Below are positions 38,701 through 63,674 of a DNA stretch of 64,000 bases, piece after piece. The notes under the pieces were generated by a model. It worked only from the letters and a program-made list of their open reading frames with translations, was not told the origin of the DNA and did no database searches. The position numbers and the translations under genes were made by a program. Within the stretch, counting starts at the first letter, position 1, and the number at the start of each line of letters is the position of its first letter. Origin of the DNA: Styela clava (Eukaryota; Chordata; Ascidiacea; Stolidobranchia; Styelidae); NCBI RefSeq assembly GCF_964204865.1, contig NC_135262.1, positions 17,537,650 through 17,601,649 on the forward strand, in the 5' to 3' direction.

Positions 38701-41700
38701 CCAATAATAATAATAATCAGAAAGTGGTAAACATCTTTGATAAGGAAAACGCTCTGTTACCTCATAATTCCACACAACCTCGTAGTATTAGCAGTGTGCA
38801 CAGTACGATTGCAGATGCAGTAAAATTCCGGATTCCGGACATTTGAGCATTTTTTAAAATTCTCCCCGGACGAAAAATTTAACCCTAAATTCCAGACATG
38901 GCAACCCTATTCTATTCATTATGCTATATCGGCAGGCTTGTCCATGGGAATGGGATTCCCAAACGGAAACGTCTCATGAGATGGGATGGGACAGCACACA
39001 TTTGTATTTCCCATGGGATAAGAAAACCGTATGTAAACCATTTCGTTATGGTCTTCGTGTCCATATATTTAAGCATAGCTCTTTTGTTAGTTAAAAAGAG
39101 AAAAATATATATAGCATTACCAATATACTTAGTGAAGGGGCTGATAGACACATGTACAATAGTTATGAATATAAAGTTAACAAAGTCCGTATATTTTGTT
39201 GTTTTGCATATCTCTTCGTACATGTAGTCCTATTTAGTAGACGCTAAACCTAAAATTGGGATGTGATGGGACAAGCAATAACATTCATAGGACATGAACT
39301 GGTGTTTTACGTATATATTTAAGGCAGAAAATACACAAAAACTGGTGTGAAAGGGATTTATGTATTCACGTTACCTTCAGCAGTTCGAACAAAAAACAAC
39401 AGTGAGTTTTCATCTTTGTCGTTACCACCGATATATATCCCTGGTCGGCTTTTGTAGGATGTTGTGCTTCTTACTACTACTTGATTTCGCCGTGATGTGA
39501 ATCCCTTTACGTTTAGCCAGAAAGCCAGAGTCAATCCATCTGAACAAATTGAATTATATTTTTTTTTAATTTCGCAAAATTGATATCAAAAAAAAATTTG
39601 CTATGCTTTCTATAGAAATAAATGAAGAACTACTTAGATTAACTGTTGTAAATTGTAGCAGGCGTTAATTAATATTGCTAATTTAACCACACATTTATTA
39701 TTGTTTTATAATGCTTATTTTCAAATAGAATTAGTATCACCATGTAAATGTTCAAAATAATGATACACACAGAGATGATACTGGCATTTTGCACTTGGAA
39801 AATTTATTGATTTAATGAAAAGCAGTTATAGTGGGCAGTGCTTTAACAGCTTTTTATCAACCACCAAGAAATTATACAAGACAAATACATATTTCATAAC
39901 CGTATGGTGTAGAGCGCTTTGAAAACCGCATTTTTGAAAACCGTAAGTAAAATTTGGGCTAGGAATTAAGAATTTGCAAAATAGTGATAAAAGATTATAA
40001 ATCGTAAAACATTGTACACAAGTTATTACATTAATTCTTAACCATAATTACAGTACCTTTACATTCAACTGGATTTCGTATGCAATCGGATTTCCAAATA
40101 TTTTCAATTAATTCAATTTTTTCTTTGTTCAAATGTAATGCGTTGCCTTTTATTCCCGCTTGAACATCTATTGAATACGATAATAAAACTAGATTCATGT
40201 CAACATACCATCAAAAGAACAACATGAATAAACGTCAAATTGTGCTTACCAATGCGTGTAACGTGCATATAAACGGAAATGAAAGCAATATAACTATACC
40301 CATGTTGAATTAATATTGTATTCATACCACATTTTGTTATTTTGATTAATATACTTGAAAGAGTAAAGTTTGTTTGATAAATCACTAGTAAGAGAGAGAA
40401 TAGGTAACTGATATATAATATATTGGTATGAACAATTAAAACATGTCAACAATTCCGCAATATGACAGATTGTAATTTATAAGACGATAAAAAATTTTGA
40501 TTTTGATTTTCGGTAGTGTTAGAGTTAGTAACTGGATTCTATGAAAATGACTTTATGAGATCACGGTAATCGAGTGGGATCGCATACCAAAGTGACACCA
40601 AATTTGAATAGGTTTATTGTCATTTCTTCAGATCCTTCCTGTTTGTCACACCTATAAGTGGCACGCACTAGGTACTTATTATACCCTAAAATCTATCGCG
40701 ACATAGTGAAATTTATAATTGCAGAATTGCTACCATTTTTCTCTATGATGAATGCAATGCATTGGTTTGTGAATAAATTTCACGTAATTTGTAACACACT
40801 TACTGTAGGTACAAAACAATCATACAACTAGCGAACAAAGTGTATTATCAGCCGACTGTAAATAATTAGAAAATTTTATTAATGCTACTAGGAGTATAGA
40901 ATCGCAGACATAAACAATGTGGTCACATTGTTGTTTGACTAAGCGTTTTGGTTAACAATGGGTAACACCATTAAGTAAACATGCCGTGGACGTATAAAAA
41001 ATTCTTCTGTACAATCTATACGAATTCGATATATTAAAAACGACAAAGACCTGTCTACCGCATCAATACAAGCCACGATGAACAAACATCTGGTTCAGTA
41101 TTGTTCAAGTAAGAAGATATCCAAAAGTTTAGCAACAAGGCTCAAGCACATAACGCATCGTCCAAATCGAGACAAGTTACTGACGATAAAATGTGGGTAT
41201 TGAAGCCATAGTAAAGATGGTACAAAAAATTCAAGCACTTCGATTTGCTAAGAATTCATTTCACCCATAAAACTGACACGAGAAGTTCGGTCGACCTTGA
41301 ACCTGATATAAAACTAATGACATAAAGACAATTTTTATTGAATTTTACTGTTTAATCCAGAATATAATTGTAAAAAAACCATAAAATTTGCCCACACTCC
41401 ATGTTTCCCAAGCTTGTCAAATCACACGAATATTTATCTTTATCTCCGAAGTCGGGCAGCAATGTTTCACCGTCATACGTGTCCATTGACCAAAACACGA
41501 GAGGATCCGTCTTTATACCTGGGAATAATCAGAAAACTCGACATTGACTTTACAGATAATATTTGTGTGGGCATGATCATATTGCTCCTAGCGTCAGAGG
41601 GGGCAATTGTTTTTTAATTAACGATAAATTGTATGAATTTACGATCATTTTAAAGCGTTTTGTTCACATACAATTAGCTGCATTCAACGTCATACGTTGC

Positions 41701-42609
41701 CGAGCTGATTAGAAATCCGTAGGGTTATCGCACATCGTCTCATGACTACGGGTAAGGTGCCGACGCCCCAAGGTTTATGGTTTGATGGAGCTTACTTTTG
41801 GAATATTACTTTTGCTCGGTGCACGACTATAATGGGTGGGATTAGACCGTGTGATTTACCGAAAAGGGTATTGACCATCAGTGATACGTGTTGATGTTGC
41901 ATCTGGATCCTATCCGCAGCATGGCTCGGTTCGTATAGTTTTATCGATTAAAAAACTTGTGGAAAACTCAGTTGTTCGGATTAACGTAAGCTAGTGATCA
42001 GATTCGCAAATTATTATGCTGTAGGTGACGCTTTTTTTAAATATATTTCGTCTAAAGGCTGCTAAACGTTCGCAGAACAAACGTTGAAATAGCGGTGTGT
42101 AACAATGTAGAAGTATATATATTATTTCGTATTTATAAATTCGTATTATAAATTTGTAAGCACCTAGACTAGGATATTTATTATTACGCAAAGCATATTT
42201 ATATAGACAAGTCGTATGATGTAACGTAATTAAGTAGCTGAAAGTTTCGAGAGGCAGTTAACACATTGAAAATCAGGTCAACTATACTCTAAATTAGAAG
42301 AAAACGGTTAGAAATAATACTGCGACTTGCTGGGGAATATTTAATTATGTTTGCATATAGTCTCATAGGCTGGCAGGTAGGTGAAAGGTAAAAAAAATAT
42401 TTGGCGAAAATGGATCACAGCCCAAGCTTCTAGATATGAACTAATTAAATAAAGATCTATTAAGATCTATTGCAGGATTATGCCTCCGGGGCAATCGAAG
42501 CCTCTACGTCCACCAGCACAACCTAAAATTAAATCGTGTGATACAGAAATAATTGCTCACCTGCGACTTTTCCAATAAGGAAGAGGATTGTCACGAAATA
42601 AAATTCCAT
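32770..42609 (-). CDS. Single-pass membrane protein with LamG/ConA-like ectodomain and Ser/Thr-rich stalk
   Basis: Six exons in transcript order: 42609-42561, 40167-40057, 39539-39375, 36268-36177, 33826-33637, 33362-32770 (stop); 1,200 nt, 399 residues, every phase fits. Exon 1 gives a signal peptide (MEFYFVTILFLIGKVA). Residues about 20-200 form a laminin-G/pentraxin-like jelly roll: GIKGNALHL, GLTLAFWLNVKG, WTHVAMSWNNHTGIQVSING, and DEFWIFYQNISAEEILSLY, the typical closing strand of LamG_3 domains. Residues about 203-345 are a Thr/Ser/Pro-rich stalk with several N-glycosylation sequons, mucin-like. A transmembrane helix spans about 349-371 (VVIICSFLLLLAVSIWLCVV), followed by CC and a 25-residue charged cytoplasmic tail. 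This is a type I surface protein; an adhesion or recognition role is inference. I do not recognise a named orthologue. Introns contain several hAT elements. Confidence 0.8.
34909..35297. mobile_element. Non-autonomous hAT MITE (family E), nested
   Basis: Left end CAGGTCTACCCATGGGAC; right end, reverse-complemented, CAGGCTTGTCTATGGGAT. Target-site duplication GTAATATT (34901-34908) and GTGATATT (35298-35305), 7 of 8. It is rich in CCCATCCCATCCCATGGG. A second copy lies at 38934-39276 in the opposite orientation. Confidence 0.75.
35312..35748. repeat. 219-bp tandem duplication inside a hAT
   Basis: Two direct copies (35312-35530 and 35531 to about 35748) share GAGAAAAGCATGC, CGAGATTTG.CGGAGCGCTTTCGCGAT and AAGACGTCGCCGGGC, about 85% identical by eye. 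They lie at the right end of the element 33995-35824. Confidence 0.8.
37016..37105. mobile_element. MITE copy 4 (short internal-deletion form)
   Basis: GGCGCTCCCGAAGTATGTGT then ACCAAGATGGCGCAC, followed almost at once by the complement GTGCGCCATCTTGGTGCACA. It is a near-perfect palindrome of about 35-bp arms without the telomere-like core. Flanks AGTATTTT and CATATTTT match 6 of 8. Confidence 0.65.
37440..38152 (-). pseudogene. hAT transposase remnant, N-terminal part
   Basis: Starts MANSKRKYTFTNEMQEKHPC and carries a BED-like zinc-binding pattern (C-x2-C ... H-x4-H: AECLVCKSG ... NTHLQSEKH). A frameshift near 37770-37790, where AATCAGGGAAA is duplicated, moves the frame to one reading KKFSSGRTKTEKVVTSVLAQ and then GVATDGSNH and LFPIIIQYFDW. 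These are the DUF4371-like start of the hAT catalytic core. The rest of the core and the C-terminal dimerisation domain are missing. It cannot be active. Confidence 0.7.
38934..39276. mobile_element. hAT MITE (family E), second copy
   Basis: CAGGCTTGTCCATGGGAATG at the left and ...CATAGGACATGAACTG at the right; interior GGATGGGACAGCACACATTT matches 34909-35297 in inverted orientation. No matching 8-bp duplication was found. It starts 16 bases after the duplication of element F. Confidence 0.6.
39540..42560. other. 5' introns of the LamG membrane protein gene
   Basis: Introns 39540-40056 and 40168-42560. They are AT-rich, without a recognised gene or element; frames here show no motifs. Confidence 0.5.
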
Positions 42610-43813
42610 TTCTCTTTCGTGTATTCCAACTTTTGAATTTTAATTCACTGCACTGTAGCTTGAATAAACTTTAACGCCGAGGCAAACAACGCATTCGTCT
42701 AAATGTACATAGTAAACTATCGGCCTATTTACGTGCCATTCATAAATGAAAGCACCGCCTCCCTAACCATAAGCAATAACGCAATTGAAGTTACGTTCGC
42801 GCGTTTAGGCATAGCCGACGTGACTGGAGGCCACCTATACACTTTATAATACGACAAAATCCACGCCTGAATGATCACGGGCTAGGTAAATCTTTTGTAG
42901 TAACATGTAAAGACGCATACGCCGTCAAATTGCGTGGTTATAACATTCCCGTACAATGTTTTAAGGATTACTTTTTGCATTATCGAAATACCAAGTCACA
43001 CTTATCGCGCGCATTCTGCCACGAGATTGTGTACTTAGAACGAAATGCTGGGAAAGAGACAAAGTGTATCGAATTCCTCGCTAAATTGTTACGGCTTTAA
43101 CTTGCATCACAGCAAGTCAATCAATGATATGGAACCAATCAACAACTTACTTAATTATTATTATATAGTTAGAAATGGTGAATACTTGACAATAAATCAT
43201 TTTGAATTGGAAACCTTTTACTAATATATTTATATTAAAAGCCAATTACTACAAAAAAAAAGAAGTTTTGAAAAAAAGTAACGCGAATTTAAACAAAGAT
43301 TGATCTGTGAATATAGCAACCTTTCGTTCCGTTCAATTTGGTCATTCTGATGACCCGTCCTGACTGATCTGACCAAAGGAATGCGAGATCTTGTAAAAAT
43401 AGTTTCACAACGCTCTTAGTTTATGCATTGAAAGAATTTCGTCACTCAGCATCTATGCCGTTAATTAATTTTGGCTCAAAAAATCGTCAGGACCATGATG
43501 CAATTTCAGGTATCAGCACTATGAGTTTCGTATTGAATTCACTCGCAATTGGAATTCCTTGTAATATAGAATATTGCTTGTTTCTATAGGTTGGCTTGCC
43601 CATGAAATTAGGAGAGATATTGCGTATTGAACTTCTTCCTTTCATTTCTCCTACTCCCCTCATAAATTAGGGATTTTTTTTTAACTGGACGTTTAACTGC
43701 AAATTTTCCTTTTCATCATAACAGGTTGAAAAAATATTCAGCCCTTAGAATTTATTTGTAATTGCCAAACTAAAATTATTACTTTAGGGAAACATTTATA
43801 GATTGAGAATATT
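42610..43813. other. Intergenic region
   Basis: Between the 5' end of the LamG membrane gene (-) and the 3' end of the carrier paralogue (-). Nothing recognised. Confidence 0.5.
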
Positions 43814-43819
43814 TTTATT
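43814..43819 (-). terminator. Poly(A) signal of the minus-strand carrier gene
   Basis: AATAAA on the minus strand about 100 bases past the stop codon at 43921; a second lies at 43751-43756. Confidence 0.5.
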
Positions 43820-43920
43820 TCAGATTTTTAGAACATATACAACATTGAACATACAACATTGAATCATTATGGCTGTCATAAATTTACAATAGTGCGTCAT
43901 TCTAGTCTTCTAGTATCTTC

Positions 43921-46900
43921 TTAAGGTTCTGATAGTTTTTCGGATTTATTTCCTGGAACGTAGCCTTCTGGTACAGGATCTAAAATAAGTTTGGACAAAA
44001 TAATCAGTGGCGGCGTGTGGTCATTTTGACAACAGGGGCAAGCTACTGCGGGACCAAGTCACCCCCATCTACGGGGACAGGATGAGCGCTGAAAGTTCTC
44101 CCATCATTTTATGAGTATAAAAACCATTCCATCGGTAACAACCAATCGGCAAAAGCGACATTTTTTAACGATAAGAAAGTGTCTTTGAAACCGGTCCAAG
44201 TCAAGGGATTAATAAATATAGACATAGTTTATTTTGAAACCTCTTTCAAAAGGAAAGGCAATATTTATCCAGATAAATACAATGACATATTAACAGAAAC
44301 TTCGGGAAAGCAGACAAAACCTAAAATAAGGTTTAAAACGTTACTATGAAGAAAGGAAAGGTAATGCAAAGATAAGGACATGCGTCGCTCACTCATAGAT
44401 ATATATGCTGCTAGACTTCTACTGCTTGAACATATATGCAACACGTCGCGGTTTCTTGGAAGCAAAAGGCTCAATAACGCGCTGATTAAAGTCATGCATC
44501 CCAGAAATAACGTCTCTGTGAATGGATAAAACAGCCAAGGAATTTGCTTTATTTTGCTTCATTGTGTTTCTGAGATACGTTTTAATACGCTTCAGCGTGC
44601 TGAATGTTCGCTCTGCGTCGGCGGAAGAAATAGGCGTCGTCAAAATGATGTCCAGAAATTTTGCAGACGCCGCATAGGTAGTTACTAGAGTGTTATCTAT
44701 GAGGAACCCATAGAGCGCGCAAGTTGATGTGATGTTCAAAAAAGTTTGATTGGTGTATATACATCGCAATTCATTTTCCAAATAACCCACGATTATCATG
44801 GGGTAAAATTTGGAGACAGTAGCCAACAAATAGATGGGAAATTGACGTGCAAATTTTGTAAAATTTTTGGGGTTCATCAAAGAGAACGCGGCAAGGTGTT
44901 CAATGCGCAGACGATCGCCTATTTGATTCACCAGAATTTCACAGCATTCCTTTGCAGACAAAATCAAACGCTGCGTTGTTTGCCCGCGGCGTAAAGAAGC
45001 ACTCCATGTGTCGTCGTATTTTATTATTTCCCGGATACGAGATACAGCATCGCAGAAGTCTGAAGTACACGACTGCACAGACGCTCCATCCATTAGCCTT
45101 GACTGCAATGCGCCGTATAATACATCCACGTGATAGAATATTGTGGAGAAAAGAGCGAGAAAAAATGAAAACTCACCATCTTCTAGCAGACGCTTTAGAC
45201 CTGCCGCCTCCCTCACAGAGCGTTCGTCCCAAACCGGAGAGCTCTGAATGCCATTGAAACACTCAATGAGCTCAGACCTAATTTTGGACACGCCCTGCAC
45301 CACGCGTGATTGGAAGTTCCAACGTGTTGGTGCACAAGCTGGGAGACGGCGGCTACATATCTGGCGAAGGAGGTCAGAGCGCTTCGGCGGGACGGAAAAA
45401 AATGAAGAAAACCCAGAAACATTTGCAAAAAATATACGGACGAGAGGGGTATCAAGACACATATTTTTAATAACGAGGTTAAATTGGTGTGCATAACAAT
45501 GTAAAAAATGCGCATGAGGAAAATCTTCTTTTATATAAACTTGAACACCATGTTTCGACCCACTCATGACTGCCGCGCCGTCATAAGTTTGAGCTATCAA
45601 TTTTGACTTCGCGTTGTAAGGCTGTAACACTTCTTTCAGTACAGCCGATATCCTGCAAGCCGTGCGATCAACGATTGTTACAAAGCTGTGAAATCTCTCG
45701 GTAGGTTTACCATCTTTCACAAACCGAAAAATCACAGCCAGTTGGGAAACGCACGTGATGTCAGTTGTCTCGTCAGACTGAATCGAAAGGAACTGGCAAT
45801 TCTCAATTTCCAGAGCAAAATGTTGTAAATAAATTTTATACATTGAGTCGAGCAAATCATTTTTTGGATATCCTTGGATGTCCCTTTCGAAACAGTTGCG
45901 GCATCAAGATGATTTCTCAATACTGTATCTAGGGATGTGGTGTATTCCACCATATCCAAAAATACCCCTCTATTAGAAGAGCCAGCCTGTTCATCGTGCC
46001 CACGGAGGGACAGCTCGTGACAACCAATGACCTTCAAAACATCTATCAATCGACCGAGAACATGGCGGTTTTTCTCGACATTTTGGTTGTGCCGACGAAT
46101 AGAAACAGCGCGTCCTTCATCCAACTGTGCTGCAATATTAACATTTCCGAATGTTCGGTATTTTACTGCATTGTCCAGATGCTCCATAGAAGATAGATGA
46201 TCCCTGGCACGCTCGGAAAGATGTTTAAGATCTCTAAAACCAAATTTACACCAACGTGAGTCACGGGCAGTAGCAAAAAGTAGGCAATAAAAACAAAAAA
46301 GTGCATTTTTGTCCTCGCTGTAACACAACCATTCGTGTTTTTTATACCAAGTTTCTGCGCAGAATGTACGCCGACGCTTTCATCCGTCATGGGATTGTTC
46401 CAGTGAACAATTTTTTGGTTGATAAGGCCCAAGACGTTGTACCTCTAATTTTTGTTCCAGCGGCAGCTGCGAAAACGGAGTGCGAAGTAGTGCATCAACC
46501 TTATTCATTATGAGGTCTAAGGCTAAGAAATGCGAAGCCGGAAAGAAGTGAGGAGCTCAAAAGGAATGTGGAAAATCGAAAGCAAATGGACTAAAGGTCT
46601 CTAACTGATTCAAATAGCGAAACAAGCGACAAAAACGAAGGCGAGGAAACTATCAACTCTCCAAGCAACCAACGAACGAGAAGGAATGCGTGAATATGTC
46701 AACACGTTGTTGTAAGAAACGTCGGCATTGTGTCGTCATAATTTCGGGGCTAGCCCCGATCGGCCCCGATGATTTAGTAAAAGAAACAGAAAACAAACGA
46801 GACAAACGCGGCGAGTGGAAGATAAAAGAGAGAATACGATATACAATGAGCAACCGGGGCAAAATTGGCGTCGCCCCGTCGACGTTCGGCGAAGGCTCTG

Positions 46901-49900
46901 CGAACGAAAAATGAACCATGTCGGTAGAATATGGCTAGTGTAGACAGTCTGTGCAACCGATATTGAGGTATTTTTCGAATATTTTTTATTATACCGAAAA
47001 AACAACCGGGGCATTGGTTGGCCCTATTGACGCGCCGCCACTGAAAATAATGATCTTGTATCTATTATTTTGAAGGTTACTAGAATAAGTTTCAAATAAA
47101 ATTTCCCTCAATGCTCATTGAATACTCTTTTAATCGTAATATTTGACACACATTTCCTCGATATTACAACTGAATTGAGTTTTATCCCCCAACCTGGTGG
47201 ACCAATTAGTCTGATGAGAAGGTGCAAACTGTGATAAAATTTTAATAAGACAAATATTGCATAATTGCGACAACGATCAAAGTCAAAGAAATTCACATTA
47301 TTGATGTGGCAGAAGGATAATGCTAGGGGCATTAATTCGTTATCAGATAATAAGAAAAGAAAGTGTAAATTTGTACAAACCGGTCTCGTGGCAACGAAAT
47401 TTTGGTGAACTAACATCCAAGAAAGCAGCACCATTTATTCGCATTAATCTTGAAATTAAATCGAATGTAGTTTCTCCCGGTTTCGGGTAAACGCCTAATA
47501 TATTAGATAGCTTTCTGTTAAAAAGAAAAATACAATTATGTTGTTGTACTGGTCAATACAACGAAAGTTGATTTAGGGTTGATTTAGTATGGAAATTAAC
47601 TAGAATAAACACAGTATACTTTTTTTTTTCATTTGAAACATACCTACAACTCCACGTTTCGGGATCATCGCCCTCACGTTTTGTTTTCCATAGACCTATC
47701 AATGCCAACGACGTCATAGGTTTATTTTCAATTAATATTTGTCCGTCCTTCATTTTGAATAGATTTTCGATGACATAATTTCGCATGGCGCAAATAGTTT
47801 CGTTAAGTTTGGTTTTATTAATCGTTGAATTCGGCATTGTAAGTAGGCAATGTAGGGCAGGAAGAAGCTTTATGGTATTTTCTAAAAACAGAGAATAATG
47901 AATACATTTAGCCTTCTGTGATTCAAATATTTTATTATTAAATACACCAAAATTTAAAAAAAAAATTTTGCACGAATTTATTAATTGGGTCATATATACA
48001 AAAATGGTTTCAGATTTCAAAAAATAAATTGCGTCCGGTTACAAGAAATTAAAGGAACTCACGAAGAAATTCAGAATCTCCAAAACTGCCGTTTTTGTTT
48101 TGACCTTCAATGAGTCTATTCACAAACCAACCTTCGAAAGGAATACCGCTAATACATACTGATCCAATTCCGATTGATAGCATGTCGTATCCAACAGTTG
48201 GAAAACGAGCTGAAAAAGTGGCAAAACTAAAAACAAACAAAGTTACTTGATGTTTGCTCAAATCAAAATCGCATGGATCGGAACAAAAACGAATTGGATG
48301 TATTTGGAAACAATAATTAATGGTAGAATGAGAAGCGCGCAAAAATTTCAAAATAAAAATCAGAGTATTTTTTGCACTTGCATCACGGTTGTTATTTTTA
48401 ATTGAAACTCCTGATTCTCTATTTATTAATTGAACCTGCGAAAATGTGTAATGAAACAAATTCGAGGCAAACGAAAAATGTCGAGATTTAGTCCTGTTCT
48501 CGTATAGGTTACAATTATACTAGTAGAAAGAATTTAATATTTAACATATCAGATAGATGAAACGCCTACCATCATCGGGAAATTGCATCTTTATTTCATC
48601 AGAAACATTTCCAGCGAAGTCAACTCCGTCGATACTACGGACATCAAGACACATACTTTTTGCTGAAATGATGTGCTCGGCTTTCTGTCTCATTGTCATT
48701 CTTATATAAAATATTACGGAAGTAAAATAGAAATGACCATGATAATAAGCAATGCTTCCCCTCTGCCATGCTTTATTAACGCAAATTAAATGGTATACAT
48801 TTTGCAGAAGGATATTTGCAAGAAAGTAAGTGGTTTACTATCCCATAAACTGTTAACGAAGATTAGTGAATGACCCCGGCTCGACAAAATTCTCTCGAAA
48901 AAGTTCTCTCGAGTATTTACAAGGCCCATTATTTCTTTTTCATAGCAACAATCTGGCTCAAAACAATATCTTTACTTTATATGTGGAGTATTTATTTAGT
49001 AGAGCATTTGACATTTTACATCGTTAAACATAAATGAATGATTGTTTGAGGGTAATAAATATTTTCTTTCTTCTGGATCAAGTTCATGTTGGCATATTGC
49101 GTATATAATAAACTCAACTAAAGCATTGTTAAAGTTTATTTTCTTATGTCGCGAGCAAAGGAAAAAAAAATAAAAAAACTCACTAACGAAGCAAAATTCG
49201 TGAAATATAAAAGTTTACTGTACTCTTTGAACTTTGATTTTATATTTTTCACAAGAGCATTTGCAGTTTTTCCGCGACCAAAGAACGTTTTTTGCGCCGT
49301 AAGCTGCAAGATAATTGGCGTGGTCAAGTCTTCCCACGTCCAATCCGGTTTTCTATTCTTCATTAGCATTTTAACAATTTGCTTCGTTGCCTGTTTCACC
49401 TCTTTTTTCGAAGTTGGATCTCCTGAGAATGTGAAACAAAAATTGCTGTTTTTAATTTCACTAATGTTTAGGTAGTTTTTCCCAAAATTGTGACGCGCCA
49501 CGAGATAGAATGTTGATTAAAACGAACTGGAATGAGCAATAGCGTTAAAAAACGGAAACTGAATTAATTTATCTATAATCTATTTCAGCGAATGCCATGT
49601 ATTTTGGAAATGGATTAGTAGAAAGTTGCATGTAGACCCACATTAGTTACCCTTTTTAGAAATACGAAAATCCCCTTCATTTACATGTTTTAAACAAACT
49701 TGAATAAAGTAACTATATAATTTTATTTTATTTACTTGCCCCAACAAGTTTATTTTTGAATTCTTGAAATATGTACGAATTTTACATTCAAACCTTTAAT
49801 GACTAATCAAGCAATTCAAATTTACTTATTCCATTCGACGTCAGCATATAAACATCTCTAAGTTCAAATTATGTAGGTTCTCATAAACTCGTGTAAATTT

Positions 49901-50291
49901 TCAAATGCTCCACTGGAAGCAATGATATATAGTTTGACACAGAGTTTGAAATAACATGAACCTAAATTAGAACACCAACTGGACACAAACATTCTTACTT
50001 ACGGTATATATATGTATATGATTCTCTGAAGCAGGCTAAAATAATACCAAATAACCCACTAGAATAAACAAGACGATTCATAACATTTGTCAACCCTTTT
50101 TTTCATAATTGACAGCTTAGAATCACATTTCGACACAAATAGGAAACCTAGCCTCAAACCAAACCCGGATTCAGGCTCAATTGCTAATTAAAAAGAAATT
50201 CAAACTCACCGCAAACTGTCGCAGAATCGTCCACGGAGCCAAAAGCTAGGGCGACAAGCACCAATATTAGCGTTAATATCAACAACTTCAT
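43921..50291 (-). CDS. Secreted intrinsic factor/transcobalamin-like protein, alpha-domain only (paralogue A)
   Basis: Vertebrate relatives bind and carry cobalamin outside cells. Exons in transcript order: 50291-50210, 49422-49224, 48700-48570, 48209-48063, 47881-47644, 47514-47381, 43979-43921 (stop); 990 nt, 329 residues, phases all consistent. Residues 1-18 are a signal peptide (MKLLILTLILVLVALAFG). The rest matches the alpha/alpha-barrel domain of intrinsic factor: C27, C111 (AKSMC), C156 (GIGSVC), C198 (ALHC), C265 (WSC) and C307 (FRC) correspond in order to the six disulfide cysteines of that domain, and GAAFLDV precedes the last as YLDV does in the family. GQNKNGSFGDS marks a toroid helix turn. 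The C-terminal beta (DUF4430) domain is absent. The acceptor of exon 3 is an unusual AAG. A hAT occupies the last intron. Cobalamin binding is inferred. Confidence 0.85.
44005..47043. mobile_element. Full-length hAT transposon (family G) with nearly intact transposase
   Basis: Terminal inverted repeats start CAGTGGCGGCG at both ends, followed by imperfect inverted similarity (GGTCATTTTGACAACAGGGGC against GGCCAACC...). Exact 8-bp target-site duplication AAAATAAT at 43997-44004 and 47044-47051. Size 3,039 bp, encoding a minus-strand transposase. It is inserted in the last intron (43980-47380) of carrier paralogue A in the same orientation. Confidence 0.92.
44419..46507 (-). pseudogene. hAT transposase (ZMYM1-like, TTF zinc finger and DUF4371), two lesions
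   Basis: Transposase of the element 44005-47043. An N-terminal frame from 46507 leads into a TTF-type zinc finger (TWYKKHEWL, NALFCFYCLLF, then CKFGFRDL and H...H). It then has the DUF4371/catalytic core (LSIQSDETTDITCVSQLAVI, TYDGAAVMSGSKHGVQ, HCYAHQFNLVIK) and the hAT C-terminal dimerisation motif (SSADAERTFSTLKRIKTYLR). Two breaks were seen: an in-frame TGA near 46380 just before the zinc finger, and a one-base loss in an A run near 45862 that splits the core from the N-terminal part. The intact 3' frame is 45855-44419. Either break could be a sequencing error in a homopolymer or a real mutation. Catalytic region and C-terminus look undamaged. Confidence 0.85.
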
Positions 50292-51134
50292 ATTGTGTCC
50301 ACTACTTCTAGAGCTAATTATATCGAATATCGTATATATCTTATAGTCTTTATGTAGAGAACTATGTGGCGACCTGCTCCCATCACAATACCTGAAACCA
50401 CTTCAATGCTAATCCATTTTAAAAACTGCTCAACGGCTAAAAAAATCTTTATCTTAAATTCCGAGTATACTGGCTTTATGTATGTTATGTATCTTCGGGC
50501 AATGTAATATATAATGTTAATCACCAGTGTTGTATGATCTGAAAAATTGAAGCACGACAGTTAGGTTAGAAACGAGTTGAATTAACCAGTTTATTTCAAT
50601 TTATTTCTGTTTAGTTCAATTTGTTTATATGACTATACATGAGTGAATTTTACAAAATTGACGAATGGCTGCTACCCTGCACACGTGGTGTATTATTCCC
50701 TACTTTTGTAACATCTGTCCATGTCACAATAGAAAAAAATGTGCCAATTTGCATCGGTGTGAAGTGGGAATGCACCGATGCTTATCAGACTCACTTGTAA
50801 TAAACATTTTTCGCTCTGATTAATGCATGCGCAAAATTTCAGACGTTTTGCAATGATGTCTGGAATGTTTGTTATGGTCTTGCTTGAAATAAAAGCTAAT
50901 TTCATACGCAGCAATATAAGAATGAACATAATATGCCATTTGGAAGTGATAAAAAATCACTTACATTCAAGCGTGTACTTCCTGCTGTGATAGGAAAACG
51001 TCACACAACAAGAAAATTCGTTCGAGTTCGTCTTCATTACTATTCATAGCATTAGGGTGTCGCTATTTCGGCGCAAATGAAAATAGAACCTTTTTTTACT
51101 TCAAAGAGTGGTATCCATGGGTGTGTATATATGT

Positions 51135-51605
51135 TTAAGAGTGCAAAATTCCACGGGTGCAATAGATGCGAATATCTGCGGGTGCAAATGTACGCGGGTA
51201 CAATTGTACGTCGGTGTAAATGTACGCGGGTGCAAAAGTATGTGGGTAAAAAGTACGTGAGAGCAAATGTACGCGGGTGCAAAAGTACCAGGGTACAAAT
51301 GTTTGTGGGTTCAAATGTGCGTGAGTACACTGGCGCAAATGTCCGCGGGGGCAAATATGCAAGATGCAAATGTCCGTAGGAGCAAAGGTGTTTGGGTGCA
51401 AATGTAGGTGGGTGGAAACGTCCATGGGCGCAAATATCCATGGGTGCAAATGTCAATGGGTGCAAATGTTCATGGGTGCGAATGTTCATGGGTGCAATCT
51501 GTATGTTGGTGCAAAAATCTGCTTGTGGAAATGTATAGATGCAATGTTCGTGGGTGCAAAAGTAGGCAAGTGCAATTGTCCCGTGTGCAAATGTAAGTGG
51601 GTTCG
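51135..51605. repeat. 16-bp minisatellite, locus 1
   Basis: About 28 degenerate units of GGGTGCAAATGTACGC (period about 16, with 15-18 variants). On the minus strand it gives a long open frame rich in HLHP/TFAP/ICT, which is a repeat artefact: the period is not a multiple of three, so the same unit is read in all frames. Confidence 0.9.
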
Positions 51606-52564
51606 TAGATAATGGCTCTTTGCGTATATGCCGCCTAATTACATGACAGCATTTACATATGGCGAGGTTAGTGAATTTCAAACAGCTAACAGCCAGCTAA
51701 AAATCTAGTATGTATTTTGGCCGCCATCGTTTTGAATGTTACTCATCAGTAATGGTGATCAAAGAGGCTAATTACAGAACAAATTTAATCCACGCAAGCA
51801 ATCAATCCGGTCCGAACCGGGACATTATTTTGACGCACTAATCACTGAATGAGATAACCAGAGGAAAACAAAATCCCGATTTCATTTGCAAGCCACCCTC
51901 ATTATGGTCTTGAGTCTGAAGTAAACATCAAGCTATTTTTTGGCGTACAATTGCTAGACTATCATTTGTATTGTTGTCACAACAGTAGGTTTCTTTGTTT
52001 CAAACATTAACACGGCGAAAATTAATTGGATTAACCCAACGTCTATGCATAGACAAACCGGTATATAGGATTATATTTAACAAATGACATGATGACAATG
52101 GTATGAATTTGTATTGTTTTGCTATTCACTATTTTAATTAAAATAAGAAAAAACCTGTATCAAAACTATAATCAAAATATAACGATTGGCTCCTAAATTC
52201 TCAATACAAAAATGCCGTTTGCGTTGGAATTTATTTGGCAAAAAAAACAACATATCGAAAACGTCAAATCTCACATTGCCTGACTTTGTGTGATTACCCA
52301 TAAACAATTTTTCATGTGTCAAAACGTTCTACACCAATTTGTTGGCGGTGATATATAACACTAAGCCAATCGTTCTGCTTTAGGCTGACGTATTGGCATT
52401 TCTACAGGCTGGCAACGAATCCGATACTGTAGTCCGAAATTGTCATATTAATATATTTATTTTTCTTTTATGGCAGAATTATATTTGTTCGTTCTACGGT
52501 TTAATTTTACAATATTATGTAGGGTTTTGTTTTTTATCAATTCTAAAAAAAAACATCGTGTTTT

Positions 52565-52810
52565 AAAACAAGGGCTTGTTTTAAATCAATTTTTTTTCTG
52601 TATTTTTTGTACTTTTCATCGAAATATCCCTTGCATCGCCGCGAAACTACGCCAAAACGTTACAATCTGGCAGCTGCACACGCAGCCGGATTTACAATTT
52701 CAAAAATGTGAGGAAAATTTTTTATTTTGACTCTTACTATTGCGTACATTTATCGCCACGTTTGTATTTCAACCAAAGTCATAAGACTTTACCCGGAATG
52801 TTTAGCCGAG
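52565..52810. repeat. Dispersed repeat, copy 2
   Basis: Same order of blocks as 22490-22740 (GGCTTGTTTTAAATCAATTT, CTTGCATCGCC, CTGGCAGCTGCACA, CCAAAGTCATAAGA). Probably an old transposable-element fragment. Confidence 0.6.
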
Positions 52811-53519
52811 ATATCAGAGGAACGTCTTGAGTAAGAAAAATCATGAAAATTAGCTCGCGAGCAACCTACAAAAGCAATTAGATCAAGTGCAGTCCTTCGG
52901 CAAAACGAGTGGGTTGCGATAATGAAGAATATGGTTATATCGGCGGTAATCTACTGATATAAACGATGAGACGCCCTAGCCTAGCTTTTGTTAATTGTAA
53001 GAGTCCTCTGATGCAAATACGCCACAACTAATCTGTTATGACGCCATAATATGAATTTCGAGTTCATGTATTGACATTTTTCTCATAAAATGATGGCGAT
53101 TCTACGGTTAATACTGTTCGGTTATGGTTTCATCGCAGCAGGGTCATTCACATAATGACTTATCGGTTGCGTCTTACTGCGCCAACCACTGAACTACAGC
53201 TTGAGAAGGTGTGCATGAGCCTATATCGATATTTGTAGCGTTTTGAAAGATTTATTGCAAATAGGAAGCGCTTGGCAAGTTTTTACACCCATTTTTCTTC
53301 AACCTATTTAATAAAAAAAATCAAATAGTACAGCCATTTTGAACAAAGAGGCAAAAAAAAAACTTGATTCAAAACAATTATTTTAAAACAATTCTCTTTG
53401 AACAAATAATATTATGCATGGTTTTTGTTTGCCCAAAATTCGCAGGGGGGATGAAAAGAAAAAAATCATAGTCCTAATAGGGTAATATTCCTGAGCTCTT
53501 GTCGGGTCGCCTTTAAAAC

Positions 53520-53861
53520 TTGATGAAGACGTCGGCGAAGCGGGAAAGTGGAGGGTCTTATTTCAAGCGTGGGATCAAATTGCAAGTCTACCCACTGGAG
53601 TCAAGTATTCAATATGTAAATAACAGTGACAAAAAAGCAATAACAAATAATTCAAAATTCGATAACAATAAAACTCATGACGGACGAATATCGCGGGTCA
53701 TAAATAATCAAATATATGAAAAATATAGTGATAAACTTCATGATAGCATATTTCATTTAAATGAATTCGTAAACACTTTACGTAAAATCGATGATTCCCA
53801 AGATTTTTATCACATTCATATTGGTATCGTCATCATAAGTATATATATCAAAATAACGTGA
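53520..53861 (+). CDS. Hypothetical reading frame, 113 codons
   Basis: An uninterrupted frame in AT-rich DNA, starting MMKTSAKRESGGSYFKRGIK and rich in Asn, Lys, Asp and Ile. It has no signal peptide and no family motif. It could be a first coding exon, or chance. No splice partner was identified. Confidence 0.2.
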   Translation: MMKTSAKRESGGSYFKRGIKLQVYPLESSIQYVNNSDKKAITNNSKFDNNKTHDGRISRVINNQIYEKYSDKLHDSIFHLNEFVNTLRKIDDSQDFYHIHIGIVIISIYIKIT

Positions 53862-55088
53862 CGTTTAAACTGTATGTGGAGATTTTTGAAACCTCACAAA
53901 ACCTATAGGCGTGGTCTTTATACTATATTCACTACTAGACGACAAGAAACGTGAAATGCTTTTCATGCAGAAAATTTAGCGTGTAATGTACGAAAATATC
54001 TTTCGACAACTTTCGACCATAATAGTGCTAAGTAATAAACTATTTATTGTGCATTTAGGATTATCCTGACAGATATGTTGGCAGAGATATTTGAGGCAAA
54101 AGAGTCCAATGAAAGGCTGTAATTGCCGGAAATTCGCAGTATGCTACAGTGACATGTAATGTTTATTTTCAATACTTTTTAAATATATCATTTTGGAGAT
54201 GCCATGCTAAAATACTATTAATCTATACAGAAAACACAATTATCAATACTTCCAATGTTTTAGAAAAAAATGATTTTTTTTGTTTAAATTCATTATGAAA
54301 AGTCGCGAAGTTACCTATCATGGTTAGAATTTTATTCTTATATTCATATATATATTCCTGTTAATGCTAATGCTTTTCTCCATACTGATTATTGAAGTTG
54401 TATGACGGGCAACAAACTGCTGTTGAATTTAATTTGCTGATGCGCCCATGGTAAACTATGCCACGTTTTATGACTTGATAAGGACAAAACACACCCATTT
54501 GAGAAAAGATGCAAAAAATAATTCTTTCCCCAATCATTATCTCACGACCTCTTTATCGTTATTCAGATACCGTCTGTATGATTGAAATGATGATTTTTCA
54601 ATAATCACAAAGTAATAATTTACAAATGAGTATACGTTTGAGTTGACAAATAGATCTGAACATTTTTTTTTAATTTCAATTTGAGTTCATAGTGAAGCAA
54701 AAAGTCCAAATCATTGTATCGATTGCAATGTTTGATGAAACATCGTCGCCAAAATTTTCACCGATGAGGTGCTAATCTCAAAGGTTTCTGAAACGCCAGG
54801 TATCAGAAGGACGTTATATACAAATTCATTTTGATCACCTTATCGTATCAACAAATCGCCTCTATCGTGACCAAACGGTTTATTTTTATATATGCATCGT
54901 GTACGATTTCATAAACATTTTTTTAATAATGGTCGTGCTTTAAAAATGACTCGTCAAATTTACGCGTCTGCTGATGACTACGAAAGATAATAAATACAGA
55001 CGGAATATAATATATAAGAGAATTTTCTGTTTTGAATCATTTGTGTGAAATTCCGACAAGTAAGAAGAAGCCAAGGGAACCTAAGAAG

Positions 55089-57560
55089 ATGAAGTTGACT
55101 TATATTATTTTAGTTACATTAATAGTTGTGGCGACATTTTGCTCATCCGCTAATGCAACTTCAATATGTGGTGGGTGGAATTTTAAAGTAATACTAATAC
55201 TAATAATTAAATATCAGTTGATGAGATCGGTTGAAAAGGTTCATGAAATAAATCTTTAAAAATATACCAAAGCATCATCATTAAATAAAAGATAAATTAT
55301 TTCAATATGATCTTCTTAGGAGATCCGCAATCCGAAAAAGACGTTCGTCTTGCGACCAAAGAAATTGTGAAACGTTTGATGGCAAGGCGAAAATCTGATT
55401 GGACATGGGATGCGGTTACAACGCCTATTGTCTTCCAAGTTAGTGTTCCAAAAATGTTTTTCGGTCGTCAAAAAACAGCAAGATCTATTGTGAGAAAAAT
55501 GAAGAAGAATTTTCACAGGTATTTATATCAAAAGCTATATCTAGTAACAACAAAAATCGGAAATTAATCCAAAAATTGTTTTTAGAATGACGTTGAGACA
55601 AAAAGCAGAGAATATTATTGCTATAAAATCTTTGTGCATGAATGAAAGAGACGTCGGAGGAATAGATCCTGTGAAAAACGTATCGGAAGAACTAAAACTA
55701 CAATTTCCGAATAACAGTAAATATTAACTTCAAACACGTCAAAACAACTCTTTAAAAACTTTTGATCGAGACATGCGATAGCTTTTTTACCTCATTTTAT
55801 CGACGATATAAAACAAATAGGTCTAAATAAATATTTTTGGAATGTCTCTATGATAATTACAATACAATAAAATACTGTAATTTTAACCTGTTAAACCTTT
55901 TTAACGTTATACAGCTCGTTTTCCAGCGATCGGATACGGAATGTTTTCCATTGGGATTGGTTCGGTATGTGTTAGTGGATACCCGATTGAAAATTGGTTG
56001 TTTGAAAAATTTATATCTGGACAAAATGAAGACGGAAGTTTCGGAGATTCAAATTATCTTAGTGAGTAAAAAATTCATACAATATGAGTCGCGTTCAAAA
56101 GTTTATATCCCAAATTTGACAATTTCTGTTTCGAATGATATACTACGTCCAGTTAAAAAGGCGATAATATATAAAACAAACCTATCTAAGAATGCAACCA
56201 ATGTATTCCATAACGCAATGCGCGCAGATCATTTCTGATTTGTTTCTTTTCAATTAAAGGCTATACTTATATGCCAAACATTTCTTTAAGTATTACCCAG
56301 TTTTTACTACTGAATCTACATATTGGCACATCTGACAGTTTGTAATTATTTTTAATTAAAAATAACAAATTTATGAACTATAGTAATAAAAATTCAGCAT
56401 GGTATAAATTCATCTCTCTACAATTGAGTTTGACAGTTTTAACAATGACAGTAACCGGCAAAATGCTGCGATTTTTTCAGTGAATACCATAAGGTTACTT
56501 GCTCCTACCCATTGCCTGCGCCTGATGAAAAATCCTGCTTACAACGCGACAAAACTCGATAATGTGCTTTTAAAAATGAGAGATTACATAATGAAAAACA
56601 TGATTACCACTCGTGCTGGGGAAGTGTACATTGAGAACAAAAGTTTAACTTCACATACGATACTTAGTTTATGGAAAACAAGAAATGAAGGAGAAAACCC
56701 CGATAAATGGCGTTGCAGGTATGCTACGTTTTTGCATTTCTTACACCAATTTTTCTCGTGAAACTCTATTTGGTTGTTTATGATAGTTGTCAAATCGGCG
56801 CTCCCGTAGTATGTGCAACAAGATGGCGGATATCTGAACATAGTATGTGTACCAGGTTAGGGTTGGGCCATGATTTTATTCCAATTTTCCTTATCTTAAT
56901 TATATTACAAGTTCGGGCACTAGCCGAGTGACTCCCGTAGTTTTTGTACCTGAAATTATGGCCTAACCCTAACCTGATACACATACTACGTTCCGGTGTC
57001 CGCCATCTTGTTGCACATACTACGGCAGTACCGTCAAATCAATTTCCAATATGGGAGTTCAACTTTATTCATGTTTTTGTGGTTTGTGCAGGGAGCTATC
57101 AAAAACGTTAGGAATATATCCAGACCCGGACGAAACTTTGTCTCAGTTGACTTCTCGTTTGATGCGTCTTCATGGGGCTGCATACCTGGATGTCGGATCG
57201 CCGCAATTCACCTGTCAAAAACCAGGTAGTGTGTTTATGTCAGATTTACTAACGTTTTCAAATATTAATACCCATGTACTAAATCCAGATATGCAAAGCA
57301 TTTAGAAAACTTGTTTGTAACAGCTGCATTGACACCTACCTACACGTAAATACATATATATCCAATCGTTATAATGAGGACCATTGTATAATATGAGTGA
57401 GACAATGTCTGGATAACTTCTCTGGGTTGACTGCTATTATCTCACTTATATATTTAGTTTGTTATGATTGTGTTTTCATTTAGATCCTGTACCAAAAGGT
57501 TACGTTCCTTCATGTAAGCCACACAAGCCATGGACCTGCAAATCGAAGAATCCAAAGTAA
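55089..57560 (+). CDS. Secreted intrinsic factor/transcobalamin-like protein, alpha-domain only (paralogue B)
   Basis: Exons 55089-55170, 55320-55518, 55586-55716, 55915-56061, 56481-56718, 57092-57225, 57484-57560 (stop); 1,008 nt, 335 residues. The first six exon lengths (82, 199, 131, 147, 238, 134) and all phases equal those of paralogue A. Signal peptide 1-23 (cleavage after SSANA). Family cysteines C27, C111, C156, C198, C265 (WRC) and C307 (FTC), with GAAYLDV before the last, match the three-disulfide alpha/alpha barrel of intrinsic factor and transcobalamin. GQNEDGSFGDS lies at 173-183. The tail carries two extra cysteines (C321, C329), which paralogue A lacks. No beta/DUF4430 domain follows. 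Intron 5 holds an 8-bp-TSD MITE. Extracellular cobalamin or corrinoid binding is inference from the fold. Confidence 0.87.
56797..57032. mobile_element. MITE with telomere-like repeat (copy 5)
   Basis: GGCGCTCCCGTAGTATGTGC at the left, ...CATACTACGGCAGTACC at the right; exact 8-bp target-site duplication GTCAAATC at 56789-56796 and 57033-57040. It has two inward GGTTAGGGTTGGGCC / GGCCTAACCCTAACC blocks facing each other. In intron 5 of carrier paralogue B. Confidence 0.85.
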
Positions 57561-57829
57561 CAGGAAATTGCAGAACAAATAAATCAGAATTCGAACGAGT
57601 TAAAAAGGAACATTCCTCTATTTTTATTATGGATTTTCATCAATTTCGCCGCGACAAATCTTTCCATTAGATTTTGTAAATATGAAAAATTTCAAGCAAT
57701 TTATTATGCTCTCCCACACATAAAAATTGAAAAGTGACAAAATCAAGATTCACGTTTCATTTTCCGTGTGCTGTCATATTTTATGACTAAAGTTATTTTG
57801 TTTTGTGCTTGTATTTTCTGTAGTGTATC

Positions 57830-57835
57830 AATAAA
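57830..57835 (+). terminator. Candidate poly(A) signal of carrier paralogue B
   Basis: AATAAA about 270 bases after the stop; another AATAAA at 57578-57583 lies only 18 bases after the stop. Confidence 0.4.
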
Positions 57836-58030
57836 TATTTTCATCCTAATAGTTTAAGCATATGTTTTAACATGTGTTACAGTTGTATTATCGTTTAGCA
57901 GAGTGCTTAAAAATCATTACCTCGTCGTTTGAGAGGTGACCATGCCTGCCTGCCACCGGCGATGTATCATTTACATAGGAATTATAAGATATTACATAAT
58001 AATCAAACTTTCAAAAACGGCTCCAACGTC

Positions 58031-58290
58031 TTTGCACCCATGTACATTTGCACTTTATACTTTTGCACTCATGGACATTTGCACTCGCAGAGTTTAAAAT
58101 CAACATATAGTTTGCACCAACGAACATTTGTACCCACAGATATTTGCACATACGGACAATCGTACCCACAGACAATTGCACCCGCGGACATTTGCACCTA
58201 CATACATTCGCACCCGCGGACATTTGCACCCCTGAACGATTGCACCCGCGTACATTTGCACCCACGGATAAATACCCATGGGTAAAGATG
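58031..58290. repeat. 16-bp minisatellite, locus 2 (opposite orientation)
   Basis: About 15 units of the type TTTGCACCCACGGACA, the complement of the unit at 51135-51605. It ends at ACCCATGGGT. Confidence 0.85.
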
Positions 58291-60887
58291 CCTATGTGTG
58301 AAAATGTCATGAAAATGTCGGTTTCCTATAAATAGCTATGTTCAAATTTCCTCTGAGTCCTTTTTTTCGAATCTAAAAGTTTGTTGTTTATACCAGCGAT
58401 TCTCAAAGTTGGCGATATTGCACACTTCTTCTTTATTGTGATGATGCTATAAAACTAATCAATGCAATAGTGTAAAATTTTATCGTATATCTTGTAATTT
58501 TGCTAACGGCAATGTCTTGAAAATAATCTTGAGCGGCTCAAATTTAACATATTACCAAGATCGCAAAAATGCGAATCAGTTCTAAATATAATCGGACAGT
58601 ATACCATTATTACCATATATTTTGATGTACGCAGATTGTTCATTTCAAAGCAATATTATTTTTATTGTATTGTAAGTAGACGCAACGGCGAGTTACTTTG
58701 AAAATAATGGAATTATTACGGCAAATCCTTGTTATTACCTGTATCGGCCATGGACTGACTATTTTGCGCAACAGAAAAATCATGATTTGATTTGCAATTT
58801 CGATTTGAAGCTTCCGAAAAAAACGATAGCGTATTTTCTTATAAGTCACAAAGGCTATGGTTGGGCGTTTGAATTTGGTGTCCGTATATTTGAGCATTGC
58901 TCTCATGTTTTTCTTTTATATTTTATTTATACTCACATCCTCCAGCTCTCTAGAAAATTCAGTGTTCTTAACCTTTATGCCCTTAGGCAATATTTTTGTT
59001 TTGGTACTCTGCCAACGTATTTTATCTAGTGCGTAACATGCTTTTAAAATTTCTTAGGGCAATTTGTTCTCCATTTCGTCCTCAGTAGAAAAGGGCAGAA
59101 CCTGATCAGGAAAGTAATTGACTGGAAGAGAGTGCTATGCCGAAAACTTGCGATTGTGCTGTAAATTTAGAAATTATATATAAGACTTAAAAATCTTATG
59201 ATATCGCCCAATTCACAATAAAAAATTCATGTATTCGCAGAATCACTTGATTATCCTAAGTGATTTGAGAGTCTTGCTGCACACTATCACAAATATATTT
59301 CTGTAACGTTTCGTTTGACCAAGTTCATACTATGTATGTCTGAAGAAGTCTGACCTTGGTCAGACGAAACGTTACAGAAATATATGTGTGTTAGTGTGCA
59401 GCAAGACTCTTAAATCACATAGGATTGTTATCTCTACTCTTGCTACAGCATCCTTGCAATATATGCATACGGATCCACCGGCACAAAAGCATAGAAGAAG
59501 GATAAGTAGTTAGTCTCGCAGAAACCAAATAATCAGCGTCACTTGATTATGCTTGATATTGCTACTGATGTAAAGAAGTTGTGCAATATGTCGGTAGTCC
59601 TCGTGGTCCTAAGTTTTAGTTTAGTTCGGGCTCGTTCGATTGAATATCGTCATCGTGATAAATATAGCTATCTTGTCGTTATCATTACTGTTGTCTTTTT
59701 TCTTTTGTGTCACCATTTTTCGTAATGAGTATACTAGCGTCCGGTTAAACTCAGTAAAATGTTCAGGATTGCAAGAAATTATTTTTTTTCAGTTTGGGAT
59801 TGCAATGCTTATTTATGACGTTGTGGTTTGAATTAATTCAGTAGTCTCGTTTGTAGCATCTTTTTTATTGTATTTCGAATTGTTCGATATAACATTATGA
59901 TATTTGCATGTCTACAGCTCCTATTGTACTATATTTATAGCTACTGTTATTCCTTGGTTTTATATCTGCCGTTTTGGCAATATGCTGTTATATCGAGTTT
60001 GTGTATAGGGATTAGTTCTCTATTATATATATGATTTTTCCTTGATCATTTATTTGTTGCTAATTATTTCATTTATATTTTAGTCAACCGTTTTGAATAT
60101 TCTCAATAGAAAGAGTCTGGCAAAGCGAATTATCATTTCTGAGTACCAAAATTGACACATTAACATTTGTTATATTAATAGACCTAAATTCGATGGAGGT
60201 GCGTTATGTATAGTGCGCGATCCAATCACAACATACAGTTGCAGACGTTAGCAGATGTACCGTGTAACATTATGTTAGCGGAAATTACAGTTTCCTGTAC
60301 CTTACTGCGAGTGATATAAAATGGTGATGACGTCATCAGTATGGGCTACTGCGAGTCTTTTCGGGTTATCTTTTTTTGACAATGTATAGGTTTCATCCAA
60401 ATACGAAAAGGCGGTTATTCGTTTGAAAGAAAATAGAACAAAAAATATCGAACATCTTTCCAAACCGACAGAACTGGAGTTTATGTACTATCATAATACT
60501 GGTGTTAAGTAGAAAGCTACACACTTGGTGTTACGATTGTAAACGTACGTTGTTTACAAATTTGTCGTACATTTTGCCTCTGTACGCAGTGCATCGTGCG
60601 TTACCTTGTATAACCAATCATTGTAGACCCATTATTACCCCTTTTTCCTTTTGCTTGTAGCGTAAATTAGTAATTTTTTCCGTTGTCGGGTTCAGCGTTT
60701 CCCTCTCCGTCATTTTCGCATCACTTATTCGTCGTGTAAGAGCCGCGGATATTTGGCCGTATTGTTTGACTGTTTACTTATCTCTTGACGTTAAGCGAGC
60801 TCAGGTTTTCGGAGGCGCAACTTGTGAAATACGTGCAGTGGCAGATGTTTCCGAAGGTTTTGGAATTACAATGGGAGTTGCGGGAAG
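58291..60887. other. Intergenic region
   Basis: AT-rich; holds the long fold-back at 59261-59417. No gene is supported. Frames near 59543-59831 are hydrophobic but short and without homology features. Confidence 0.5.
59261..59417. repeat. Long inverted repeat (fold-back) with an inner stem
   Basis: The left arm TGATTTGAGAGTCTTGCTGC...ACGTTTCGT is matched by the right arm ACGAAACGT...GCAGCAAGACTCTTAAATCA, about 52 bases each with a few mismatches. Between them, CTGAAGAA is followed by a perfect 8-bp stem GTCTGACC/GGTCAGAC with a TT loop, then GAAAC. Confidence 0.8.
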
Positions 60888-61070
60888 GTGATTTGGAACA
60901 AGTCTAACAGCTCCCGCGCACTTCGTGAACTTTCTCCCGTTATGGACAGCTTCGGCGTAATGCGTGTGGGAGGTCGTTTGGACAATGCGCCAATACCATA
61001 TGAATTTAAACATCCCACCATACTGCCAAATGAACATCATTTAACCTCGTTACTGATAATTAAGTGTAAT
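60888..61070 (+). pseudogene. BEL/Pao LTR-retrotransposon fragment (integrase zinc-binding region)
   Basis: Reads FGVMRVGGRLDNAPIPYEFK then HPTILPNEHHLTSLLI, the conserved segment before the integrase of Pao/BEL polyproteins. It is a short fragment, broken at both ends. Confidence 0.65.
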
Positions 61071-61407
61071 GTACAGAAACTCCTCTTGAACCATCATCGG
61101 CTGGATTTAATTTAGTTGGAACGTGGCGCCAATTTGAAACATCACAATTCTGCTCGATCGTAGTTAGTCGGTTAGCAACAAACGTTGTAACCGTTTCGAA
61201 GAGTTACGAGTACTCTGTAGTATGGCAGTCGAATTCGCCCAAAAGAAGTTCTGTTTCAGTAAAAGGTCTAGCTCTTTTCTAATTATTGCTCCCAATCTCA
61301 CGGCTAAGACCGCCGCAGTTAACTCCAAACGAGGCACTGATACGGGTTCAATTTAAGCTAATCTAGATTTGCCCATCAGAAAAGTGCAATGAACTCTGAA
61401 TTGGTCG

Positions 61408-61690
61408 TCACTCGAGACGCAGATATGCAACGGCGCTGTATCCGTTATTCGATGCGCCTGCAAAAATATGTACGTTACTTCGACTGGCGCGTCCAAAGTC
61501 AAGCGGTCTAAGACTGCGACAAATTTTCAGGTTTTCCATTAGTTGAATTTGGTTGGCCCAGCTATTTGCATCACGTTCACAAATAGCATCGTCCCAGCCG
61601 ATCTTCTTACGGCATAAATCCTGTACCAACAACTTAGCAGTCAACGTGGCAAAAGCCTAAAATCCAAGGGGATCAAATAACGAGCTTAAC
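61408..61690 (-). pseudogene. BEL/Pao LTR-retrotransposon fragment (reverse transcriptase/RNase H junction)
   Basis: The minus-strand frame reads SLFDPLGF, a stop, then LTAKLLVQDLCRKKIGWDD and later HIFAGASNNGYSAVAYLR. It matches the Pao family 'LFDPLG...K...W..' and 'F.DAS...YG..AY' segments. It contains stops and lies opposite to the fragment at 60888-61070. Confidence 0.65.
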
Positions 61691-61941
61691 GCGACAAAAT
61701 ACCGCGCCGAGTGAACTCTCGAGCATGGATATCAATCTTGCACCCGCCCTTTTTTAAACAAGATTGATAAAATCTTGGCCATGCGTTAATGCCTTAGTTG
61801 CTGCAAATAATTTTGCCTATATGAAAATGGAAGTCTAAAGAAACAAATGCGAATTAGTTGAATTTTGCATTAATCATTGATACGAACGTTCCCGTTATAC
61901 TATTATAGGGTTAGCATAATAAACCTTCAGAAATATATAAA

Positions 61942-63025: not shown

Positions 63026-63318
63026 GCAAGTTTTCTTTGCCACAATCTGGTAGAAAATACCATTAATTCAAGTATTAGTTAATGCGATAGCCCATCACGA
63101 AGCAAAGAATTTAAATATAAATTGAGAATATATAAACAACATTGTCCAAACTTTGTAATGATTACAAGGATATTTCTCAGCATAATGAATACATGTTCAA
63201 TATTGTAAATTACCATTGATATTATGATTTACTTTTTAATATAAGATAATGGTTTTCATCCATCTTGCCTTTTTTTTTATTTTCACATGGATCACTTATA
63301 ATTCTTGTTTTCGGTTCC

Positions 63319-63512
63319 ATTACATTTGAACCCACGTACATTTGAACCCATGACAATTGCACCTGTATGCTATTGCACCTATGGAATTTTTTTTGTTTCA
63401 CGGATAGTTAAACCCACACTAACCCTAACCCATGGGTTTTAGCACCCGCATATAGATTGAACCCGTGGATATACCCATGGGTTCAAATGTACATGGGTTC
63501 AAATGTACGGTC
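63319..63512. repeat. 16-bp minisatellite, locus 3, partly inverted
   Basis: Units such as ACATTTGAACCCACGT run to about 63475, where CCCATGGG forms a centre. After it, the unit reads in the complementary orientation (GGGTTCAAATGTACAT). This suggests an inversion within the array. Confidence 0.75.
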
Positions 63513-63674
63513 ACCCTTGTTTTCATGTGCGTGGGTTTCATGACCATGTATGTTGACGCCCTTGTCCCTGTTGTTTTGTGGAATTTTTGAATTTCACACA
63601 TATCCTGGCACATTGTAGTCATTTTTATGGTCGAGAGTGTATGTTAAAATGTAGCCTGTGCTTATATGCTAGAT

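Follow-up and report, generated by a model that had tools for sequence, protein, structure and literature searches.

A divergent gene pair of Styela clava encoding probable relatives of the vitamin B12-carrier alpha-domain, likely without a beta-domain

The DNA considered here, called the window in the following, is a stretch of 64,000 nucleotides (nt) from the ascidian Styela clava (RefSeq assembly GCF_964204865.1, contig NC_135262.1, positions 17,537,650 to 17,601,649 of the forward strand), in which two genes, A and B, point away from each other. With moderate confidence, A and B are explained as an old inverted pair encoding secreted, disulfide-locked barrel proteins that consist of the alpha-domain only, are related to the alpha-domain of the vitamin B12 (cobalamin) carriers, and probably do not act as B12 clamps.

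Gene A is located on the minus strand (50291-43921) and encodes 329 amino acids (aa), while gene B is on the plus strand (55089-57560) and encodes 335 aa; both were rebuilt exon by exon and consist of seven exons. The start codons, at 50291 (-) and 55089 (+), are separated by 4.8 kb. In each gene exons 1-6 measure 82, 199, 131, 147, 238, and 134 nt with identical phases, and exon 7 measures 59 nt in A and 77 nt in B. The introns are GT..AG in 12 cases out of 12 and the reading frames are open; among the donors, A exon 2 has the weakest one, with a score of -0.5 in an approximate position weight matrix (PWM). The exons and their main features are as follows.

50210..50291, minus strand: A exon 1; signal-peptide-like start, Cys27; top 11-residue Kyte-Doolittle mean 3.59 at residue 3
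49224..49422, minus strand: A exon 2; donor AAAGA/gtacag weak (-0.5), yet exon length equal to that of B and frame kept
48570..48700, minus strand: A exon 3; Cys111
48063..48209, minus strand: A exon 4; Cys156, QNKNGSFGD
47644..47881, minus strand: A exon 5; Cys198, Cys217, Cys265
47381..47514, minus strand: A exon 6; FLDVSSPKFRC, Cys307
43921..43979, minus strand: A terminal exon; DPVPEGYVPGNKSEKLSEP, stop; AATAAA 102 and 165 nt past the stop
55089..55170, plus strand: B exon 1; signal-peptide-like start, Cys18, Cys27; top 11-residue Kyte-Doolittle mean 3.1 at residue 6
55320..55518, plus strand: B exon 2; rebuilt from the sequence
55586..55716, plus strand: B exon 3; Cys111
55915..56061, plus strand: B exon 4; Cys156
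56481..56718, plus strand: B exon 5; Cys198, Cys265
57092..57225, plus strand: B exon 6; YLDVGSPQFTC, Cys307
57484..57560, plus strand: B terminal exon; DPVPKGYVPSCKPHKPWTCKSKNPK, stop; donor-like CAT/GTAAGC with its GT at 57514; AATAAA 18 and 270 nt past the stop

The two proteins share 157 of 310 residues and are ungapped through residue 310, whereas the coding sequences differ at 118, 66, and 187 of the 310 first, second, and third codon positions, respectively. The LWL85 method gives a nonsynonymous distance (dN) of 0.36 and a synonymous distance (dS) of 1.92, and NG86 yields no dS. These values indicate an old duplication, in inverted orientation, of which both copies have been kept under selection at the protein level. 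A pseudogene is ruled out by the open frames, the lack of gaps, and the codon-position bias, and a recent copy by the synonymous distance, which is 1.92 or not computable.

Six cysteines are common to A and B (27, 111, 156, 198, 265, 307), and further cysteines are found once in A (217) and three times in B (18, 321, 329). In rat transcobalamin (TC) the disulfides of the alpha-domain are 21-268, 116-310, and 165-208, according to a passage of PMC11107200 that also describes a fourth disulfide in rat (83-96) and human TC and only three in the bovine protein. The shared cysteines of A and B occur in the same order and would be paired 1-5, 2-6, and 3-4 as in rat TC. Also their successive spacing is comparable, being 84-45-42-67-42 in A and B and 95-49-43-60-42 in the rat alpha-domain; random placements of six cysteines match rat TC as well in 51 cases out of 1,000,000, or in 202 out of 1,000,000 when the ends are fixed. 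Both proteins are predicted to be secreted on the basis of their first residues, and the NxS/T motifs, six in A and five in B with one of these in the signal region, suggest that they are probably N-glycosylated. An earlier note on this DNA had described the divergent genes and their 4.8 kb gap, the six exons of the same length and phase, the six cysteines at identical residue numbers, and the correspondence of their order with the three vertebrate alpha-domain disulfides; all this is borne out by the start codons, the rebuilt exons, and the rat pairing, with the additional cysteines being unmentioned there.

The relation to the carriers extends beyond the cysteines. For the region 137-310 of A and B, global alignments, with 1000 shuffles each, were made with four fragments from the PDB belonging to intrinsic factor (2pmv), haptocorrin (4kki), and transcobalamins (2bb5 and 8ixt), and this C-terminal half is colinear with the vertebrate fragments in all eight comparisons (z 3.8-7.8), in one of which a single shuffle out of 1000 reached the real score. 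When the cysteines are masked, z is still 3.0-6.3. Control alignments give -0.7 to 3.8 for reversed sequences, -1.1 to 2.0 for the N-terminal half, and -1.0 to 4.9 for rotations, and in each of the eight rows the real alignment scores higher than all three kinds of control made for that row. A and B have in common with the carrier alpha-domain (PF01122) the order and spacing of the cysteines, the hydrophobic signal-like start, and an alignable C-terminal half that includes a WxC motif and the YLDVxxxC motif shared with intrinsic factor; they differ in being unmatched by PF01122, in the loss of the TNYYQ motif, and in having no beta-domain. That A and B are homologous to the carrier alpha-domain, as found in transcobalamin, intrinsic factor, and haptocorrin, is judged probable, with considerable confidence; the fold would be an alpha/alpha barrel.

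The TNYYQ motif is suggested, in an excerpt of PMC4350170, to provide four hydrogen bonds to the corrin ring in TCN1. Its position aligns to VGYDM in A and to IGYGM in B, with one residue out of five kept. Of the 36 positions at which the four vertebrate fragments all agree, A retains the residue at 10-11, B at 8-9, and the two proteins jointly at 7-8, the ranges spanning three alignment modes. In the carriers the beta-domain binds cobalamin first and the alpha-domain then closes over it (passage of PMC11107200). The alpha-only form together with the altered motif makes a role as ordinary B12 carrier look unlikely and leaves room for a two-subunit carrier; the altered motif would also fit the different ligand or weaker binding that the earlier note had suggested. 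In the mechanism proposed for A and B the barrel would work alone and its open face may serve as the binding site for a receptor or small ligand; cobalamin would not be clamped, because the beta-domain, the first captor of cobalamin in vertebrates, is missing and the corrinoid motif of the alpha-domain is not kept.

Several results speak against this interpretation. The top controls (rotated 4.9 and reversed 3.8, both for A with haptocorrin) equal real values of other rows, so that helical periodicity contributes to the alignment with the carriers, and the vertebrate comparison covers the C-terminal half only. In Pfam, PF01122 has no match in A or B at E of at most 1, the same family matching two out of two vertebrate alpha fragments with more than 200 bits; below threshold, A matches two unrelated families (E 0.11 and 0.15) and B none. 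The comparison by hhalign of A and B with carrier alignments gives a probability of 3.9% over a stretch that is not colinear, and its score of 23.8, compared with 21.3 for the best of 100 column shuffles, is not convincing. Moreover, TNYYQ is also variable among the vertebrate carriers (PMC4350170, in part), for which reason its loss is a weak family criterion, and the isolated alpha- and beta-domains are both said, in the portion of PMC11107200 considered, to be able to bind cobalamin. To these the donor-like site in the terminal exon of B, discussed below, is to be added. As regards searches for relatives, phmmer with B had no match in the PDB, while two short peptide patterns, a narrow probe, gave 76 matches in viral contigs and 77 in prokaryote genomes, none of which was confirmed as a relative. 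The alpha-domain relation put forward in the earlier note is upheld by the cysteine spacing and by the colinear alignment with its controls, and is not recovered by PF01122 or by hhalign.

The beta-domain (DUF4430) is absent from proteins A and B in Pfam. When a profile of four vertebrate beta-domains was run on the 2128 open frames of at least 20 aa in the whole window, no score exceeded 6.1 bits; three spiked pieces reached about 60 to 130 bits, a weak control because they come from the training sequences. The best tblastn match to a beta-domain in the window (E 0.081, 24 residues, 53630-53559 on the minus strand, upstream of A) is taken as chance. As the earlier note had claimed, the proteins end after the alpha-domain; the searches of the window revealed no exon for a beta-domain, and the alpha-only state of A and B is likely.

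The alternative that survives best, although unlikely, is a split carrier, in which A and/or B would be the alpha subunit that joins a separate secreted DUF4430 protein around cobalamin or another corrinoid. Separately expressed alpha- and beta-domains of TC assemble only upon the addition of cobalamin (excerpt of PMC5599065), and beta-only proteins exist in fish according to passages of PMC10778862, PMC4350170, and PMC1796856; in a caddisfly two adjoining genes encode 'CG3556-like' silk proteins, for which the values 15 and 14 are given, here read as kDa (excerpt of PMC11092239), and whose beta-only nature is a guess. On the other side, the searches of the window described above found no beta-domain and the contact motif is not conserved.

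Quite unlikely is the explanation that the gene models are incomplete, the forms described being short isoforms and a longer transcript of B, and perhaps of A, reaching a beta exon located beyond the window or hidden in it. The site CAT/GTAAGC in the last exon of B scores 8.1 with the approximate PWM, above four of the six donors used in B, and makes a longer alternative B transcript possible; however, the last exon of A has no donor-like site above a score of 2. Real gene ends are favoured by the homology between the two terminal exons (a blastn piece of 28/30 nt, five of them intron bases) and by the AATAAA that follows both stops. Downstream of B (57484 to 64000, plus strand) 38 out of 38 open frames of at least 44 aa are without DUF4430 in Pfam, and the same holds, at E of at most 1, for 26 out of 26 frames of this size downstream of A (37000-43990, minus strand). 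At this threshold PF14478 recognized three of four vertebrate beta pieces, one of the four above the curated cutoff, and missed a piece of 40 aa, so that small or divergent beta exons could escape the scan.

Also improbable is a role of the lone alpha-domain as a decoy, competitor, or signal that binds to a carrier receptor: CD320 recognizes TC via the alpha-domain only, but no receptor is known for this animal and zebrafish is said to be without a CD320 homologue (both statements on CD320 from parts of PMC10778862). Likewise improbable is an alpha/alpha toroid of another branch, similar to terpenoid cyclases, in which the same arrangement of cysteines arose independently: PF01122 is unmatched and a two-row profile of A and B retrieved from the PDB, up to E 10, no carrier and three matches, all diterpene-type synthases, the best of which falls on a QxxDGSxGD stretch (QxxxGSxGD in the form common to A, B, and these barrels) and is not significant (E 0.11), while the signal-like start, the order and spacing of the six shared cysteines, and the colinear carrier alignment including the YLDV...C end set A and B apart.

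Other elements are found in and around the two genes. The last intron of A contains the relic of a hAT-family transposase (44422-46379, minus strand) in two overlapping frames and in the same orientation as A, with Dimer_Tnp_hAT at E 3.8e-9 and DUF4371 under its cutoff in both frames. In intron 5 of B a 23-bp sequence is present as an inverted pair (56804-57025) 176 bp apart, which we take to be similar to a miniature inverted-repeat transposable element; a third copy, with 3 mismatches, is located at 37023-37045. Degenerate minisatellite-like stretches, whose frames translate into repeats of the type F(A/V)PTDIC, occur in the gap between A and B (51055-51696) and just downstream of B (57911-58332).

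Positions 21903-22019 on the plus strand are predicted to contain a vault RNA gene (RF00006, 56.4 bits with a gathering threshold of 34, full model, TTTTT end). An argument on the role of A and B based on the B12-less state of insects, B12 enzymes being reported in 0 out of 19 insect genomes (excerpt of PMC2667541), was dropped given this gene, on the assumption that vault RNA goes with the vault protein, whose loss is placed before the winged insects (passage of PMC11219742) and which a review describes as absent in insects (PMC7916137, in part). On this assumption the gene points to an animal that is probably not a winged insect, to which the lack of B12 enzymes need not apply.

The closest parallels to the proposed alpha-only proteins are Tcnba and Tcnbb of fish, in which one half of the two-domain carrier is also made alone; in this case it is the opposite half, the beta-domain, and these proteins bind cobalamin (excerpt of PMC10778862). 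Only tentatively, A and B may represent a hitherto undescribed branch of secreted alpha-only relatives of the B12 carriers, mirroring the beta-only forms of fish, with a separate beta partner or a new ligand; this estimate includes the chance of a record existing elsewhere. No alpha-only carrier was noticed among the hits listed in open-licence paper searches on B12 carriers, which is not proof of absence, and similar entries may well exist, unremarked, in invertebrate protein databases. The established picture of the B12 carriers is that of a two-domain clamp, to which fish add beta-only forms. If an alpha-only form has indeed been maintained, it would mean that either domain can evolve separately from the other, and A and B would provide natural material for learning the function of the alpha barrel on its own.

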